From a virus: a stretch of 26,482 nucleotides of DNA. Shown here piece after piece: positions 13,264-24,885 of this stretch. The position numbers and the translations under genes are program-made. Below the pieces are notes generated by a model, which saw nothing but the letters and a program-made list of their open reading frames with translations, did not search any database and was not told the DNA's origin. Location: IMG/VR virus record IMGVR_UViG_3300037584_002639, positions 1 to 26,482 of that record. One strand, 5' to 3'. Each line of letters starts with the position of its first letter. Positions within the stretch are counted from its first letter, which is position 1.

Positions 13264-14209
13264 AAAGCGTTGGTCTGACGGCCTGAGCCAAGATTTTGAT
13301 TACCTTAACGAGTTTGAAGCAAAGGTTTATTGTTTTGGCGGTGATGGCGGTGGTAACGGTGGTGGTGCTTCTTCAGAACCAAAAGGAACTACCTTTAGAG
13401 GCGGCAAAATAAGTGGTGAAACAAAAGTAAATGTTCCCGACGCTCCTCCTTCTAGACCTTCGTCTAATATAATTGAACAGAGGAACAAGCAACGCACTTT
13501 AGATATGGTTAATCGCGCTGCTCAGGATTCTTTGCGGAGTAAACAAAACATTCAGCCGCAAGCTTTGCCTGCCCCACCACAAAACGCAACTAGCCTTGGC
13601 GATATTTTTGGGGCAAGAGTACCGAACAGTTTATCACAGGGTGCCCCTGAGCAAAACGTGCCAACATTTACTCCGGCTTCTTTCACCACAGAGCTTCCTA
13701 GCGTAACTTCTCTGCCGTCAACAGCAGATATGATAAACATGGCTCCAGCCATGAACGTAAATACTTACAGTCCGCCTACACAACAGAACGTAAACCCTTT
13801 AAGCGTTGATTTGGGGCCCGGAACATTAACTCCTACTTTTGACCCAAGAGGTCAAGGCGTTGGTTTAGAGTTTAATATGCCCTTCAACACCTCTAGTGTT
13901 AGCCAACAGGGTATTGGTTCCTTAGACCAAAGTGCCGTGATGGAGGCTTTAACGCGGGGTGTAAACAATCCGACCCCCATGCCTGCTGGATCGGTTCAAA
14001 CCGCAGGTATGTTTGACAACGTGTTTGGAACGCTTACCGCTCCACTTGAATATGTCGGAAACAACTTGGTAAAAAAGGGTAACACTTATACTCCGCGTGG
14101 TAGCGGCGGCATAACCTCCACGCGCCAAGAACCTTCAATGTTTGACCAGATTGCAGGTACAGGTAAACAACTTGCCGATCAGGTTGGCCTTGGTAGCGTG
14201 TTCGACTAA
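13253..14209 (+). CDS. Low-complexity Gly/Pro/Asn-rich protein, probably virion-associated
   Basis: A 318-aa protein. The GTG start at 13253 is chosen because AAGGAG at 13239-13244 lies 8 nt upstream. It overlaps the acyltransferase gene by 11 nt in another frame. After a short charged N-terminus (YKKRWSDGLSQDFDYLNEFE) comes a GGDGGGNGGG run. About 250 residues rich in Pro, Asn, Gln, Ser and Thr follow, probably disordered, and the C-terminus (APLEYVGNNLVKKGNTYTP, then MFDQIAG) may be ordered. It is the last gene of the virion operon. The Gly-rich run is not a true RTX nonapeptide array. It could be a structural linker, or a partner or substrate of the upstream acyltransferase. No function is recognised. 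Confidence 0.55.
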   Translation: MLYKKRWSDGLSQDFDYLNEFEAKVYCFGGDGGGNGGGASSEPKGTTFRGGKISGETKVNVPDAPPSRPSSNIIEQRNKQRTLDMVNRAAQDSLRSKQNIQPQALPAPPQNATSLGDIFGARVPNSLSQGAPEQNVPTFTPASFTTELPSVTSLPSTADMINMAPAMNVNTYSPPTQQNVNPLSVDLGPGTLTPTFDPRGQGVGLEFNMPFNTSSVSQQGIGSLDQSAVMEALTRGVNNPTPMPAGSVQTAGMFDNVFGTLTAPLEYVGNNLVKKGNTYTPRGSGGITSTRQEPSMFDQIAGTGKQLADQVGLGSVFD

Positions 14210-15651
14210 AGCAACCAATCCCGCGCTTCTTCGCCCAAGACTTTACCAGCAAGGTCAATCTTGCTTCTTAGAGCTTTAAGTATCTTTTCGTCAATAGTGT
14301 CCGGCGCAACAAGGTCAACATAGGTGACCTTGTTAGACTGACTTATGCGGTGAGCACGATCTTCAGACTGTAATCTTATCTCTAAATCGTAGCTGTTGCT
14401 AAAATAAATGACCGTATTGGCCGCAGTTAGCGTGATGCCGTAGCCACCGGTTTTTGGCTGGCCGACAAAAAACCGTAGCTCGCTGTCCTTATCTTGAAAC
14501 TTTGACACAATATCTTGGCGGTCATCCTGAACCGTTGCGCCGTAGTAGGTTGCGACCGCTTCGGGCCCAAAGCGGTCGCGCAGGGCCGAGGCTATCTGTT
14601 GGATGTCCTGTGTATAGGTCGCCCAAATGATTGCCTTTCCCTGTAACTCGTCGCAGATGTCAACCAACTCTTTATATCTGTTGCTTGTCACAGACACGAT
14701 GTTACCGTCGTCATCTGTGATATGCCCGCAACAGATTTGCTGTAACCGCATAATTTGTGTCAACACACTAGCGGTTGTGGACAGCTCGCCATTGTCTAGC
14801 TGAGCGAGAGCAAGCTTTTTCATCTGGACATATAACTTTTTCTGCTCGTCTGTCAGAGGCACCTCACGTTTAGTGTAGACTTTGTCTGGCAAATCCAAGC
14901 AGTCTTCCTTCAAAATACGGTTGCTAAACTTTTCTAATTTTTCGTTCAGTTCATCCAGCCGACGGTAGGCTACGATCTCTTGGAACGCACGGTTGCCCAT
15001 TTTTCGTTTTTGGACAACAGCATACCTGTTTTGAAAGGCATAATAACTATTGAAGCCAAGAGCACGTTCCGCCAAAAAAGTGCACTGAGCAAACAAGTCC
15101 ATCGGGGACTTTGTGACAGGCGAGCCCGTTAAGATTCGCCGATACTTAGCTTCGTCAGACAGCATCATCACATTTTTTGTGCGAGTAGCCTTGCGGTTTT
15201 TAATCGTAGTGCTTTCGTCCACTACCATAATATTGTCAGGATTGTTTTTTAAAAAAGCAAAAGCGGCCTTTGTGCCACGTGGTGTGGATAACGCCTCTAC
15301 GTTCATTACAAATATTTTAAGCCCCTCAAACGACTCGTACACCAGCTCTTTCATCTCTTCTTGAAACTTTTTAGCCGATGACGGTGTCCAGCGCACAATC
15401 ATACGTTTTACATTGTCAGACAGATGCGCGGGTATTTCTCCCTTGACCCAGTTGTCATACACACCCTTTGGAGCTACGATTAAAGCCGCGTTAATTTTTT
15501 CAGTAGTGTACAGGGCACCAATGGTATCTATTGCGACTTTCGACTTACCTGTTCCCATTTCCATGAACAGCGCATAGTATTCCGCGGACCACGAGTCTTT
15601 CCATGCCTGATGCTGATGGTCATAGGGCTTTGTTTTAAAATTATATTCCAA
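14206..15651 (-). CDS. SNF2-like superfamily 2 helicase/ATPase
   Basis: A 481-aa protein on the minus strand. It starts at TTG 15651, supported by AAGGAG at 15666-15661, 9 nt upstream on its own strand; no in-frame ATG lies nearby. Motif I is MGTGKSK (Lys36). Motif II is VVDESTTIKN, a DExx form typical of phage SNF2-like ATPases. Motif III is LTGSPV. Motifs V and VI in the C-terminal RecA-like domain are GYGITLTAANTVIYF and QSEDRAHRISQ. It lacks N- or C-terminal accessory domains and is near the minimal two-RecA-domain size. It probably remodels DNA or nucleoprotein during replication or recombination. It ends tail-to-tail with the virion operon (4-nt overlap) and is divergently transcribed from the replication operon through a shared promoter region. 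Confidence 0.9.
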   Translation of the reverse strand: MEYNFKTKPYDHQHQAWKDSWSAEYYALFMEMGTGKSKVAIDTIGALYTTEKINAALIVAPKGVYDNWVKGEIPAHLSDNVKRMIVRWTPSSAKKFQEEMKELVYESFEGLKIFVMNVEALSTPRGTKAAFAFLKNNPDNIMVVDESTTIKNRKATRTKNVMMLSDEAKYRRILTGSPVTKSPMDLFAQCTFLAERALGFNSYYAFQNRYAVVQKRKMGNRAFQEIVAYRRLDELNEKLEKFSNRILKEDCLDLPDKVYTKREVPLTDEQKKLYVQMKKLALAQLDNGELSTTASVLTQIMRLQQICCGHITDDDGNIVSVTSNRYKELVDICDELQGKAIIWATYTQDIQQIASALRDRFGPEAVATYYGATVQDDRQDIVSKFQDKDSELRFFVGQPKTGGYGITLTAANTVIYFSNSYDLEIRLQSEDRAHRISQSNKVTYVDLVAPDTIDEKILKALRSKIDLAGKVLGEEARDWLL

Positions 15652-15744: not shown

Positions 15745-16323
15745 ATGAGCGATGTATTCGATCAGATGGAAGCCGATTTTGAAAGTAGTATGGCATCTTC
15801 CATCGAAAAAATGGACCAAGGTGACTTAACTACAGTTGCCGGTATGGCCCGAGCAATCCGTGACAAAGAGCAAGAAGTCGCCGCCCTTGAGCAAAAGCTG
15901 AAGGACGAAAAGAAAGTTTTGCTCAAACTCACTGATGAAGAATTGCCTACCATGCTTGCAGAGATAGGTCTGACTAGCATGAAACTTGACGATGGCTCTG
16001 AGGTGACCGTCAAGCCAACTTATGGGGCATCTATCCTCGTTGACAATCGACCAGCCGCATATGACTGGCTGAGGGAGCATGGTCACGATGACATCATCAA
16101 AAATACGGTTGCCTGTGCGTTTGGTAGAGGCGAAGACGACCAAGCGTCGGCCTTCAAGTCCTTCGCTGAAAAGCAAGGCTACTATGCCGAACAAAAAACG
16201 GAAATCCATCCGCAAACACTCCGTGCGTTCGTTAAAGAACGGGTGGAAAGTGGTGACGAATTTCCGATGGAACTCTTCGGAGCATACATCGGACAAAGAG
16301 CCGTCGTGAAAAGGAGCAAATAA
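15745..16323 (+). CDS. Conserved phage protein, first gene of replication operon
   Basis: A 192-aa protein with a good ribosome-binding site (AGGAG at 15733-15737, 7 nt upstream). Residues about 25-70 are a charged helical or coiled-coil stretch (AIRDKEQEVAALEQKLKDEK). A short beta-rich segment follows (MKLDDGSEVTVKPTYGASI), then a conserved block DWLREHGHDDIIKNTV and CAFGRGEDDQASAF. I recognise this as a recurrent hypothetical family directly upstream of putative ssDNA-binding proteins in marine phages. No catalytic motif is evident. Its operon position suggests a helper role in DNA replication. The stop overlaps the next start (TAATG). Confidence 0.7.
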   Translation: MSDVFDQMEADFESSMASSIEKMDQGDLTTVAGMARAIRDKEQEVAALEQKLKDEKKVLLKLTDEELPTMLAEIGLTSMKLDDGSEVTVKPTYGASILVDNRPAAYDWLREHGHDDIIKNTVACAFGRGEDDQASAFKSFAEKQGYYAEQKTEIHPQTLRAFVKERVESGDEFPMELFGAYIGQRAVVKRSK

Positions 16324-17111
16324 TGGCTGAAAAGAAAAATGCTGTAGCAGAGCAAAAAACTGCTGAAATCGTCCAGTTTGACCCAACAATGTTCGAGGAA
16401 GACGCTGGTGTTGGTCTGGAAAATATGGGTCAAGACGATCTTGCCCTGCCGTTTCTTAAAATTCTGGGCGGCATGAGCAAGGAGCTTGATGATCTGGAAG
16501 ACGCTCGTAAGGGTGATATCTACAACACTGTGACCGGCGCGGTCTACAAAGGTAAGGACGGTATCAGAGTAATACCTGTTGCCTACCAGCGTCGTTTTAT
16601 TCAGTGGGCACCTCGCGGCGAAGGCACTGGCGCACCCACGGCTATCTATAGCCCCGGCGAAGCTATGCCAAAGACTGAGCGGTCCACAGAGGACAACAAA
16701 GAATACGTCATGGACGGTTCCGGTCAGTACATTGAAGAGACGCATCAGCACTTTGTTATCGTACTGCATGAAGATGGTGCGGCAGAAACTGCACTTATCG
16801 CCATGAAGTCCACGCAACTGAAGAAGTCACGTAAGTGGAACAGCATGATATCGTCACTGACGATGCAAGGTAAGAACGGGCCCTTCACACCGCCACGTTT
16901 TAGTCACGTTTATCTACTGAAGACCCTGCTTGAAGAAAATAGCAAGGGTAGCTGGCATGGCTGGGAAATGAGCCGTGTCGGTCCGGTAGAGGATGCGGCT
17001 ACATACAATCGCGCTAAGGATTTTGCCAAGAGCATCACCGAGGGCGATGTGGTTGTGAAGCATCAAGATGAGTCCGCTGGTAACGAAACACCGGACAACA
17101 TCCCGTTCTAA
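16323..17111 (+). CDS. Putative ssDNA-binding protein
   Basis: A 262-aa protein coupled to the preceding gene. The centre holds several aromatic and basic beta-strand-like segments (GIRVIPVAYQRRFIQWAP, HQHFVIVLHEDG, STQLKKSRKWNSMIS) of the type seen in OB-fold phage SSB-like proteins. The last residues are ETPDNIPF, very like the acidic, Pro-Phe-ending tip by which bacterial SSB recruits partner proteins. T7 gp2.5 likewise ends in an acidic tail with a terminal Phe. The location immediately before primase and helicase genes fits. The fold is inferred from pattern and context. Confidence 0.6.
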   Translation: MAEKKNAVAEQKTAEIVQFDPTMFEEDAGVGLENMGQDDLALPFLKILGGMSKELDDLEDARKGDIYNTVTGAVYKGKDGIRVIPVAYQRRFIQWAPRGEGTGAPTAIYSPGEAMPKTERSTEDNKEYVMDGSGQYIEETHQHFVIVLHEDGAAETALIAMKSTQLKKSRKWNSMISSLTMQGKNGPFTPPRFSHVYLLKTLLEENSKGSWHGWEMSRVGPVEDAATYNRAKDFAKSITEGDVVVKHQDESAGNETPDNIPF

Positions 17112-23161: not shown

Positions 23162-23192
23162 GGGCTCTGTAGGCGATACAGGGCCCTTTTTT
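23162..23192 (+). terminator. Rho-independent terminator after the replication operon
   Basis: GGGCTCTGTA (23162-23171), loop GGCGA, and TACAGGGCCC (23177-23186) form a 10-bp stem with one G-T pair, followed by TTTTTT. It closes the long replication transcript. Confidence 0.9.
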
Positions 23193-23223: not shown

Positions 23224-23256
23224 CGCTTATATAAACACAATATCTTGGAGAAACCT

Positions 23257-23397
23257 GTGGATATAACAAAGTGGAAATCTGTTCTTGTGCCGATTGAGGT
23301 GTATGAAGAGATTAAGAAAATGGCAAAGGCTGAAGGCCGAACCATCAGCGGACAACTCCGCATGATGTGGGAGCATTGGCGCAAGACTCACGCTTGA
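23257..23397 (+). CDS. 46-residue ribbon-helix-helix DNA-binding protein
   Basis: A short ORF from GTG 23257, with GGAG at 23247-23250 six nt upstream. It reads as a minimal Arc/CopG-type fold. The beta strand is WKSVLVP, helix A is IEVYEEIKKMAKAEG, the turn is RTISGQ, and helix B is LRMMWEHWRKTH. This order and spacing match phage RHH repressors, which act as dimers on inverted operator sites. It stands alone between a terminator and another promoter region, as expected for a regulator. Targets are unknown; the nearby promoters at 23419-23471, 24959 and 25069 are candidates. Confidence 0.7.
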   Translation: MDITKWKSVLVPIEVYEEIKKMAKAEGRTISGQLRMMWEHWRKTHA

Positions 23398-23481: not shown

Positions 23482-23793
23482 ATGCAAAAGCAAACCATTA
23501 ATTTTCTGTTTGACGCTATTGACGATGTCGTTAATGGCTATAACCGCAACGGCCGTGTCAACCGGCTAGACGTTGAATTGCTAGCTTCTTGGAAAACTAT
23601 TCTGAAAGCTGAAATGGAAAAACGTCAGTTGACTTTGAAGGACGTTCATCCCAGCATGATTAAAGGGGTTCAATTTGAAGCGGACTTCTCTGTGCCGGAA
23701 ACAAAGAAAAAGGTAAGTCGTCCTAAGAAAAAGACTGTTGCTAAGAAACGTCCGGTGGGCCGTCCGCGCAAAACAGAATTAAAGGTGGTCTAA
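23482..23793 (+). CDS. Small basic protein with AT-hook tail
   Basis: A 103-aa protein with a good ribosome-binding site (AGGAGAG before ATG 23482). The N-terminal 60 residues look helical (FLFDAIDDVVNGYN, LASWKTILKAEMEKRQ). The C-terminal 30 residues are very basic with a canonical AT-hook core GRPRK at 93-97 in KKRPVGRPRKTE. Such proteins bind the minor groove of AT-rich DNA and can act like nucleoid or transcription factors. Its stop overlaps the first zinc-ribbon gene (TAATG), suggesting shared control. Confidence 0.7.
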   Translation: MQKQTINFLFDAIDDVVNGYNRNGRVNRLDVELLASWKTILKAEMEKRQLTLKDVHPSMIKGVQFEADFSVPETKKKVSRPKKKTVAKKRPVGRPRKTELKVV

Positions 23794-23996
23794 TGATTAG
23801 CGGAGTAACTAAATGCTCCAAGTGTGACAAAAAAGCGGACGCCGTGGATAACGGCGTCCCTTATTGTTCGGAGCACTGGTTCAAATATGCTTTGGTGGAT
23901 ACAAATGGAATACGTGATTTGTCCGGAATGCGGCGGGGAAGGGAAATGCGAATACGAGGTAGCGTTCCCAGATCCGATGGCATGGCGAGGCGGTGA
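23793..23996 (+). CDS. Small zinc-ribbon protein 1
   Basis: A 67-aa protein starting in a TAATG overlap. Cys8, Cys11, Cys25 and His28 (CSKC, then YCSEHW) form a plausible zinc site typical of small phage proteins. The C-terminal 35 residues are Arg-rich and lie in the region that overlaps the next gene by 92 nt, so this tail may be recently acquired by readthrough of an alternative frame. Function is unknown. Confidence 0.55.
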   Translation: MISGVTKCSKCDKKADAVDNGVPYCSEHWFKYALVDTNGIRDLSGMRRGREMRIRGSVPRSDGMARR

Positions 23997-24072
23997 GCTT
24001 CGCGGCGTCATAATGGAATGTGAAAAGTGCCACGGTGCAGGGGAAATAGAGAATGACGATTATGATGGGTGA
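23905..24072 (+). CDS. DnaJ-type zinc-finger microprotein
   Basis: A 55-aa protein from ATG 23905; the frame is open further upstream but only as an overlap of the preceding gene. It contains two CxxCxGxG-like motifs, CPECGGEG (6-13) and CEKCHGAG (39-46), the signature of the DnaJ central zinc-binding domain, with an extra Cys15. There is no J domain. Such stand-alone fragments occur in phages and may bind unfolded proteins or nucleic acid. Confidence 0.65.
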   Translation: MEYVICPECGGEGKCEYEVAFPDPMAWRGGELRGVIMECEKCHGAGEIENDDYDG

Positions 24073-24286
24073 TGGCACCTTTAAAAAGTATCTCGATATT
24101 AACCTCTGCCCACGATGCATGACCCAACTACCACCCGTAGAGGTGCACGGGCATATTCAATGCTCCGTCTGTCATCTCTACATATCAGAATGTTGTCAGG
24201 GAGAACGCTGTGAATTGCCCAAAGTGCAAGAGCAAGAGCAAAGTGTACGACAGCCGGTCACGAAGGGGGACGGTACACAGGTATAG
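24053..24286 (+). CDS. Small zinc-ribbon protein 3
   Basis: A 77-aa protein that overlaps the preceding gene by 20 nt. Cys19, Cys22, Cys37 and Cys40 (CPRC, 14 residues, CSVC) form a zinc ribbon, followed by ECCQGERC with three more Cys. The loop LPPVEVHGHIQC is reminiscent of small conserved phage proteins. Function is unknown. The 3' part overlaps the next gene by 77 nt. Confidence 0.6.
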   Translation: MTIMMGDGTFKKYLDINLCPRCMTQLPPVEVHGHIQCSVCHLYISECCQGERCELPKVQEQEQSVRQPVTKGDGTQV

Positions 24287-24509
24287 AAAATGCCTGTCTT
24301 GCGACCACAAATATCAAACCGAAGAAGTCTTAGTTCAACCCACCAGAAAAGAACCGCGGCCCACGGCTCCAGTTAAACCGAAAAAACGGGCATTGAAACC
24401 CAGACCGCGGCGCACGGATCCGCTCATGTTAGACATAGATAGTATGTCAGATGATGAACTGATGGCGGCACTAGAAGACGGAAGCGTCAGTCCAGATATG
24501 CTAGACTAG
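24210..24509 (+). CDS. NrdR-like zinc-ribbon protein without ATP-cone
   Basis: A 99-aa protein from GTG 24210, supported by AGGGAG at 24198-24203 six nt upstream. The first 40 residues (CPKC at 3-6, YDSRSRRG, YRKCLSCDHKYQT with Cys28 and Cys31) closely follow the N-terminal zinc ribbon of NrdR, the bacterial repressor of ribonucleotide reductase genes. The ATP-cone of NrdR is absent and is replaced by a basic Pro/Arg-rich linker and an acidic end (DIDSMSDDELMAALEDG). It may be a phage transcription factor. The 3' end overlaps the minus-strand nuclease gene by 23 nt. Confidence 0.65.
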   Translation: MNCPKCKSKSKVYDSRSRRGTVHRYRKCLSCDHKYQTEEVLVQPTRKEPRPTAPVKPKKRALKPRPRRTDPLMLDIDSMSDDELMAALEDGSVSPDMLD

Positions 24510-24885
24510 CTTCCCAAGTCTTACTTTCTAAAAATTTATTATCAAACTTTCGGGGCAGGATACGTTTAGTAATTTGCCCCAATAAACTTTCGACCGGTTT
24601 AAACAAAACACGCTCGCAGTCCAAAGCTACGAGCGCGACAAGGTCACAATCTTTTTTATTTAAGGGTCTTTTCTTGCCGCCCACGCTGGTAACAAATTGA
24701 TATGTCCAATATCTTCTTTGTCTTTTTAGCTCGCTAGACTTTACCTGTATACGAATAAGCCGACCCTCATGGTTCGCGACAATATCTATCGTGTCGAGAT
24801 TTACTATCTCACAAGATACACCTAGCTTCATTAGGCGAACTGCACATATAAATTCGCCAAGCTTTCCCGCTTCAAAATTACGCAA
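24487..24885 (-). CDS. PD-(D/E)XK family nuclease
   Basis: A 132-aa protein on the minus strand from TTG 24885; no in-frame ATG lies upstream, and a GGGGA run is the only nearby ribosome-binding candidate. The conserved core is present: Glu11 in KLGEF, Asp34 in TIDIVA, and the QxK element Gln47-Val-Lys49 in IRIQVKSS. This arrangement fits the small PD-(D/E)XK group that includes I-SspI-type homing endonucleases and Holliday-junction-resolvase-like proteins. It could resolve or trim phage DNA, or act as a homing-type nuclease. It is convergent with the zinc-ribbon operon. Confidence 0.65.
   Translation of the reverse strand: MRNFEAGKLGEFICAVRLMKLGVSCEIVNLDTIDIVANHEGRLIRIQVKSSELKRQRRYWTYQFVTSVGGKKRPLNKKDCDLVALVALDCERVLFKPVESLLGQITKRILPRKFDNKFLESKTWEASLAYLD

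Follow-up and report, generated by a model that had tools for sequence, protein, structure and literature searches.

Two of the zinc-binding modules described below have well-known counterparts, namely the N-terminal zinc ribbon of NrdR, a protein that also includes an ATP-cone domain and binds NrdR boxes at ribonucleotide reductase genes, and the central zinc domain of DnaJ, which contains four CxxCxGxG repeats. A precedent for a stand-alone protein of this kind is Brz of Halobacterium salinarum, which is described as a small CPxCG zinc finger whose gene lies immediately upstream of bop and which regulates bop (PMC2253796). Brz and the four proteins of the present study have in common that they are stand-alone small zinc-finger proteins, but Brz is archaeal.

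For virus genomes, it has been reported that 84% of overlaps are shorter than 50 nt, although 61% of dsDNA virus genomes contain one or more that exceed this length (PMC7017920). Unidirectional overlaps have been explained by elongation of the 3' end of the upstream gene, and according to that work long overlaps in the phase encountered here (92, 20 and 77 nt, each 2 modulo 3) need no selection (PMC3887535). Termination-reinitiation coupling, in turn, requires short overlaps (PMC10666635). Long overlaps are therefore no rarity among dsDNA viruses and the length of an overlap alone is not remarkable, so that the view of the sequence-only reading that overlaps of this size are unusual even in phages cannot be upheld. 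What is of interest at the present locus is the occurrence of three overlaps in a row, a ladder of stop positions in relatives, and a reading frame that is protected in relatives while its sequence is free.

The window, i.e. the whole stretch of DNA that was analysed, is a linear virus record of 26,482 bases, and its DNA polymerase is closest (50-56% identity) to those of Phage DSL-LC04, phage 023Pt_psg01 and the Pelagibacter phages HTVC023P and HTVC027P. The phages that carry the overlapping zinc-protein genes are marine and uncultured. The explanation that we consider fairly probable as a whole is that the genes A, B, C and D form one unit of four separately initiated small zinc proteins, the long overlaps of which arose by 3' extension of the upstream genes.

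Four close-packed zinc-protein genes

The features of the locus are as follows.

23162..23186, + strand: stem-loop resembling an intrinsic terminator (stem of 10 bp followed by TTTTTT; by consensus only)
23245..23397, + strand: gene for a ribbon-helix-helix protein, 5' of the cassette (Pfam RHH_5, 3.4e-6)
23482..23793, + strand: gene AT, small protein with the C-terminal AT-hook-like motif PVGRPRK (Pfam AT_hook)
23793..23996, + strand: gene A, 67 aa, CxxC/CxxHW zinc finger and basic tail over B
23905..24072, + strand: gene B, 55 aa from ATG, two CxxCxGxG repeats, DnaJ/anti-TRAP-like zinc module
24053..24286, + strand: gene C, 77 aa, 'CPRC..VEVHGHIQC..C..CCQGE' zinc ribbon, low-confidence C-terminal tail
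24210..24509, + strand: gene D, 99 aa, GTG start, NrdR-type zinc ribbon
23905..23996, + strand: A/B overlap, 92 nt, the same in four other contigs of the window clade
24053..24072, + strand: B/C overlap, 20 nt
24199..24204, + strand: Shine-Dalgarno-like GGGAGA for D, within the CCQGE codons of C
24210..24286, + strand: C/D overlap, 77 nt, the longest step of a 14/20/32/41/77-nt ladder in relatives
24487..24885, - strand: PD-(D/E)XK nuclease-like gene, convergent, its 3' end overlapping the 3' end of D by 23 nt

The four open reading frames in their different frames and the overlaps of 92, 20 and 77 nt are as the sequence-only reading had given them, and its description of a dense row of distinct small zinc-protein genes downstream of an AT-hook-like gene holds. 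All four are probably real genes and probably translated, because A-B-C-D with identical overlaps is present in four other viral contigs (0, 1, 49 and 84 differences from the window per 717 bases; 73-92% protein identity in one of them) and because homologues of A, B, C and D are each present outside the four-gene arrangement. With profiles built from these homologues, a scan of 194 sequences at an E value of 0.01 (193 fetched loci, designated by L numbers, plus the window, repeats of the same contig included) detected A in 50 sequences, B in 137, C in 147 and D in 117. Chance open reading frames are ruled out by the homologues of all four in other contexts, and an assembly artefact is ruled out by the same arrangement in four contigs that bear four different metagenome numbers; one of these numbers may stand for the sample of the window, given that one contig has the identical sequence. 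The disappearance of a single frame without effect on the others, which had been named as counter-evidence, was not encountered in the closest relatives, which keep all four genes; it does occur at greater distance, where B-C-D is retained without A. The ATG of B is the first possible start in L004, because it is directly preceded there by a stop codon in the frame of B; counted from the ATG shared by the clade, the A/B overlap is 92 nt (83 nt in two loci if counted from a GTG nine bases into B).

The family scans and protein alignments were performed with chosen members, namely 20 of 34 distinct D proteins and 17 of 34 distinct B proteins. Residues 2-39 of D match Zn_ribbon_NrdR (PF22811) with 32.6 bits, above the curated cut-off of 27.2, and all 20 aligned D proteins, including that of the window, match this ribbon at E <=0.05 (best 3e-14). 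D thus shares the N-terminal zinc ribbon with NrdR, but differs from it in its length of 99 aa and in having a basic Pro/Lys linker and, at the C-terminus, a conserved acidic SDDELxAAL-like motif instead of an ATP-cone, which was detected neither in the D of the window (E 1) nor in the 20 aligned D proteins (E 0.05). All 17 aligned B proteins have weak matches to the DnaJ zinc domain (PF00684) at E <=0.05 (best 7.8e-5), and two of the 17 match anti-TRAP (PF15777; best 4.9e-5). B shares the CxxCxGxG repeats with both families and differs from the DnaJ domain in having two of them, in being a stand-alone protein of ~55 aa and in its score, which for the B of the window is 17.4 bits and thus far below the cut-off of 32.7. 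The earlier assignments of D as NrdR-like and of B as DnaJ-like are in agreement with these results.

In C, eight residues are invariant (C19, C22, H32, H34, C37, C40, C47 and C48) in an alignment of 26 members that includes the window and leaves out reduced forms. Nine of the 26 have weak matches to Zn_ribbon_TFIIB (PF13453; best 4e-4), the C of the window matches no family at E 0.05, and the best fold match of its model, likewise weak, is TFIIB (PDB 7ui9 chain M, TM by target 0.64, E 0.21). The likeness of C to the TFIIB zinc ribbon is thus weak both in sequence and in predicted fold, and C differs from it in having the VEVHGHIQC core and a further CC-x-GE block. The Cys sets that had been read from the sequence stand for A (CxxC/CxxH), B (two CxxCxGxG) and D (CxxC..CxxC), whereas C is richer than had been stated. 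Reduced C proteins (CPKC..C.VC, devoid of the VEVHGHIQC and CCQGE blocks) lie between B and D in L055, L058, L060, L066 and others.

The A of the window matches no family at E 0.05. Its homologues (19 aligned, 30-94% identical over the length) have C8, C11, C25 and W29 invariant; the zinc core comprises about residues 7-38, followed by a basic tail up to residue 67. The model of A contains a hairpin and a helix at residues 17-38, a pattern that we take to be treble-clef-like, and a low-confidence tail. Structure prediction, which had been proposed for each protein, was run for A and C and yielded AlphaFold models of low confidence (mean pLDDT 59 and 61), which were therefore used solely to distinguish core from tail; in both, the core is more confident than the tail. 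Fold searches with these two models gave no match with E < 0.001.

It is conceivable, although we regard it with some doubt, that A-D act as nucleic-acid- or RNA-polymerase-binding regulators in infection. This guess from motifs, from which the nucleic-acid binding proposed by the sequence-only reading is plausible, is based on the types of zinc ribbon, on the neighbouring AT-hook-like gene and on Brz as an example of a small regulatory zinc protein.

The B-C-D cassette and its ladder of stops

The long overlaps are mostly places where the tails of A and C cover the first part of the gene that follows, B or D. The A and C frames end far inside this following gene, and the overlapping parts are thus C-terminal tails outside the zinc cores. 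A packing of two zinc modules in one stretch was rejected, since the zinc cores of A and C are upstream of the overlaps; the first CPKC of D and the first CPEC of B do lie under the tail of the neighbour.

B-C-D would be an old cassette of stand-alone zinc modules. It was found in the same order and on the same strand in 44 distinct viral loci among the scanned sequences, distinct meaning different DNA over the compared stretch, so that related loci are counted more than once. The start of D is conserved and the position of the C stop is variable: the C/D overlap comprises 14 nt in 3 loci, 20 nt in 7, 32 nt in 21, 41 nt in 9 and 77 nt in 4, the last class being the window clade. A motif resembling a ribosome-binding site lies within the codons of C, not more than 15 nt before D, in 44/44 loci. 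GTG is the start codon of D in 40 of these; the C frame forces it wherever the C residue over the start is Cys, Arg, Ser or Gly (codons NGT). In the other four loci D starts with ATG, and the C residue over the start is Asn or Asp.

The rival account that survives best is a neutral one, in which the overlap simply extends to the next in-frame stop after loss of the original one and only the downstream protein is under selection. The ladder fits chance, since overlaps of 20, 32 and 41 nt have probabilities of 0.71, 0.35 and 0.23, respectively, in synonymous shuffles given the D protein, and the overlaps are in the phase that allows long overlaps without selection. The tails also look free in their amino acids; in the window clade, where substitutions are few, those of the C tail show no constraint beyond that imposed by D, and the substitutions follow the codon positions of B and D. 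In 14 of 15 D regions without an adjoining C, the C frame closes at 5-29 nt; in the remaining one it extends to 89 nt. The 77-nt overlap is reached in 2.7% of D-synonymous shuffles (three sequences) and the 92-nt A/B overlap has a null probability of about 5%; each of them is unlikely by chance, though each represents one clade. The evidence for selection for the window's own C/D overlap is no more than suggestive. Together with the protection of the A frame over another gene in relatives (see below), these values make the neutral account rather unlikely for the locus as a whole.

The preferred reading of separate initiation would operate in the following way. Each of the four proteins would have a separate initiation site within the 3' end of the preceding gene; ribosomes that translate A or C would cross the start of B or D, respectively, which would initiate on their own sites, and the small proteins may be made together because ribosomes cross the next start. 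Joint production would be useful, as is suggested by fusions of A and B (see below). For A/B and C/D, it is unlikely that the terminating ribosome reinitiates, since coupling of this type needs short overlaps and the stops lie 77-92 nt past the next start. RNA structure predicted at the starts of B, C and D is no stronger than in shuffled sequences and thus gives no support for the unmasking of a hidden start. The site of B (GGTGGA) looks weaker than that of gene E, the usual follower of A, which has GGAGG in 19/20 cases.

The reading frame of A over the next gene

A is usually coupled to the small gene E and directly precedes B in the window clade. Among 31 distinct A homologues, 29 continue for 89-110 nt over the gene that follows, in a different frame from it; this gene is E in 21 cases, an E-like gene in four (89 nt, counted by hand) and B in four, the latter being confined to the window clade. 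The remaining two are in-frame fusions of the A core with B (L136 and L183); the A part of L183 scores only 18 bits, but the CxxC..CxxHW pattern is present. The gene that follows A begins with ATGG at 9/9 junctions inspected, and the gene order A, E, B occurs in L134 and L184.

Viewed from B, the upstream junction in the 44 loci is a 4-nt overlap in 23, an 8-nt overlap in 8, a gap in 6, the A-B fusion in one (L183) and the 92-nt overlap in the four loci of the window clade, and no upstream ORF was listed in two; these counts were tallied by hand, and a second upstream ORF was left uncounted in L027, L059, L074, L087 and L125. A 92-nt A/B overlap was not seen in the other 40 B-C-D loci, including the two without a listed upstream ORF. 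The simplest account of the history of A/B would be that E was lost and that B moved into its place, out of frame in the window clade and in frame in L183 and L136. The B of L034 (2567-2731) and the A-B fusion of L183 (2110-2376) begin with the same leader, MGVYGM, which would fit either an insertion of the A finger into the N-terminus of B or a loss of the finger from there.

In each of the 20 distinct E genes that have A upstream, the frame of A stays open over E for 98-110 nt, and it is open in 7% of synonymous shuffles of E, so that 1.5 of 20 would be expected. At third positions of E where a T would create a stop in A, T was found at 0/113 sites, in comparison with 54/224 other T-capable sites in the A-E overlap, 42/147 such sites downstream of it, and 7/21 stop-making sites in three E genes without A. 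In the latter genes (L047, L049 and L050, of which L047 and L049 are nearly identical), the A frame closes after 8 nt and is thus open in 0/3. These loci, in which another gene precedes E and stops 8 nt inside E, are natural controls. The third frame over E closes at 13-55 nt. When the A-E loci were clustered at 80% identity, six clusters resulted, and the product over them was 9e-5, with codon usage taken from the longest open frame of each locus. Purifying selection keeps the A frame open over E in the relatives. This argues against the neutral account and is the point of difference from the published model of 3' extension, which needs no such selection (PMC3887535); the elongation of the upstream gene and the phase of all three overlaps agree with that model.

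What is kept is an open frame and not a sequence, because the amino-acid identity of the A tail is not above that of the third frame (0.54 versus 0.56 in 20 A-E loci, 0.66 versus 0.73 in a subgroup of eight) and because no clear drop of synonymous differences of E in the overlap was found in the same 20 loci (0.364 versus 0.398) or in the subgroup of eight (0.275 versus 0.216). Of the constraint in both frames that had been suggested as a check, the openness of A over E was observed in the relatives, and amino-acid constraint in both frames was not found in the A-E loci. A selection for basic charge in the A tail received no support, charge and Arg content being near the null; hydrophobic residues are somewhat rarer than in the stop-free null, by a mean of 1.4 over E and of 3.1 over B (kinship ignored). 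Selection for an open frame is thereby separated from selection for a protein sequence, two things that are usually lumped together as 'dual coding'. The loci constitute a natural series for the origin and persistence of overlaps, with five stop depths and one upstream gene over different followers, and the same series includes controls without the upstream gene and in-frame fusions.

In the window clade, the A frame may be kept open over B in the same way as over E. It is open in 3/3 sequences, which are related, with a null of about 5% each for random B-synonymous codons (openness being scored from the CPEC of B to the stop of A). Since only a few B-synonymous single changes would close A (6/55), its lasting openness is weak evidence, and selection for the window's own A/B overlap is no more than suggestive. 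In the other B loci (the B loci being the best 80 of 146), the equivalent frame is open in 1/64, fewer than the 5.7 expected, and T is present at 161/319 stop-making sites, so that these loci are no neutral control.

A more speculative extension, which we consider unlikely, is that A carries a portable overlap, that is, an open tail of ~30 codons, free in sequence, that covers the first 90-110 nt of the follower and through which translation of A sets the output of the follower. If this were true, replacement or fusion of the follower (E, E-like or B) would re-wire the partner that is made together with A.

A programmed +1 frameshift in the open frame of A, which would produce an A-B or A-E fusion protein and of which the fusions in L136 and L183 would be the fixed form, could account for an openness that is selected without sequence conservation of the tail and for the existence of two in-frame fusions; it is nevertheless very improbable, since E keeps its own start in the A-E loci, preceded by GGAGG in 19/20. 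The proposal that only B, C and D are genes and that the tail of A, or all of A, is a spurious ORF, to which the presence of A in merely 5/44 B-C-D loci (four of the window clade and the fused L183) might point, is extremely improbable, because the homologues keep C8, C11, C25 and W29 in other gene contexts and the A frame is protected in the A-E loci.

Neighbouring genes and wider distribution

Under the preferred reading of four separately initiated proteins, A-B-C-D would probably be one transcription unit of an uncultured tailed phage. Judged by its consensus, the stem-loop at 23162-23186 is possibly the end of the preceding unit; if it closes that unit, the ribbon-helix-helix gene, AT, A, B, C and D would be one unit. 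A ribbon-helix-helix gene also precedes the cassette in L004, L027, L034 and L183. The AT product scores 17.0 bits against AT_hook (PF02178), with a cut-off of 17.4, and is 87% identical in L003 and L004; the junction of AT and A is TAATG, an overlap of 1 nt. Similar AT-hook-like tails (KKRGRPRK, KKRGRPPK) are present on several small ORFs (L019:2399-2575, L028:3237-3416 on the minus strand, and L136:2533-2700). Within the coding sequence of A and 5' of the A/B overlap, a 9-bp perfect hairpin is located at 23837-23859 (GGACGCCGTGGATAACGGCGTCC), which could possibly be an attenuator or a product of chance. The product of the convergent nuclease-like gene matches Pfam PDDEXK_5 (1.6e-5) with 25.3 bits, slightly below the cut-off of 26.1, and such a convergent gene is also present in L004 (23-nt overlap with D) and L027 (16 nt).

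A tblastn search of 50,697 phage records revealed no clear homologue of A, B or C: C had no match, A had one at E 0.1, and B had five at E 0.2 or worse. D matched 15 records with its zinc-ribbon end (best E 0.02). Profiles run against partial sequences of three named phages (L196-L198) detected A once (0.009) and B twice (0.002 and 0.006), reached 0.07 or worse for C, and gave no match for D. Among the titles listed in literature searches, none dealt with the cassette, which is no proof that a description is absent. The results include several families of phage zinc proteins in many viral contigs, mostly without specific annotation, which are candidate host-takeover or transcription factors.

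A scan of a genome collection for C yielded one locus (L195) on a contig assigned to a Planctomycetota MAG, which is perhaps a binned viral contig. Elsewhere in the window, two adjacent genes at 15745-17111 match Pam3 phage families (DUF7307, 2.1e-31, and Pam3_Gp34, 2e-66), and an SNF2-type helicase is encoded beside them on the opposite strand at 14206-15651.
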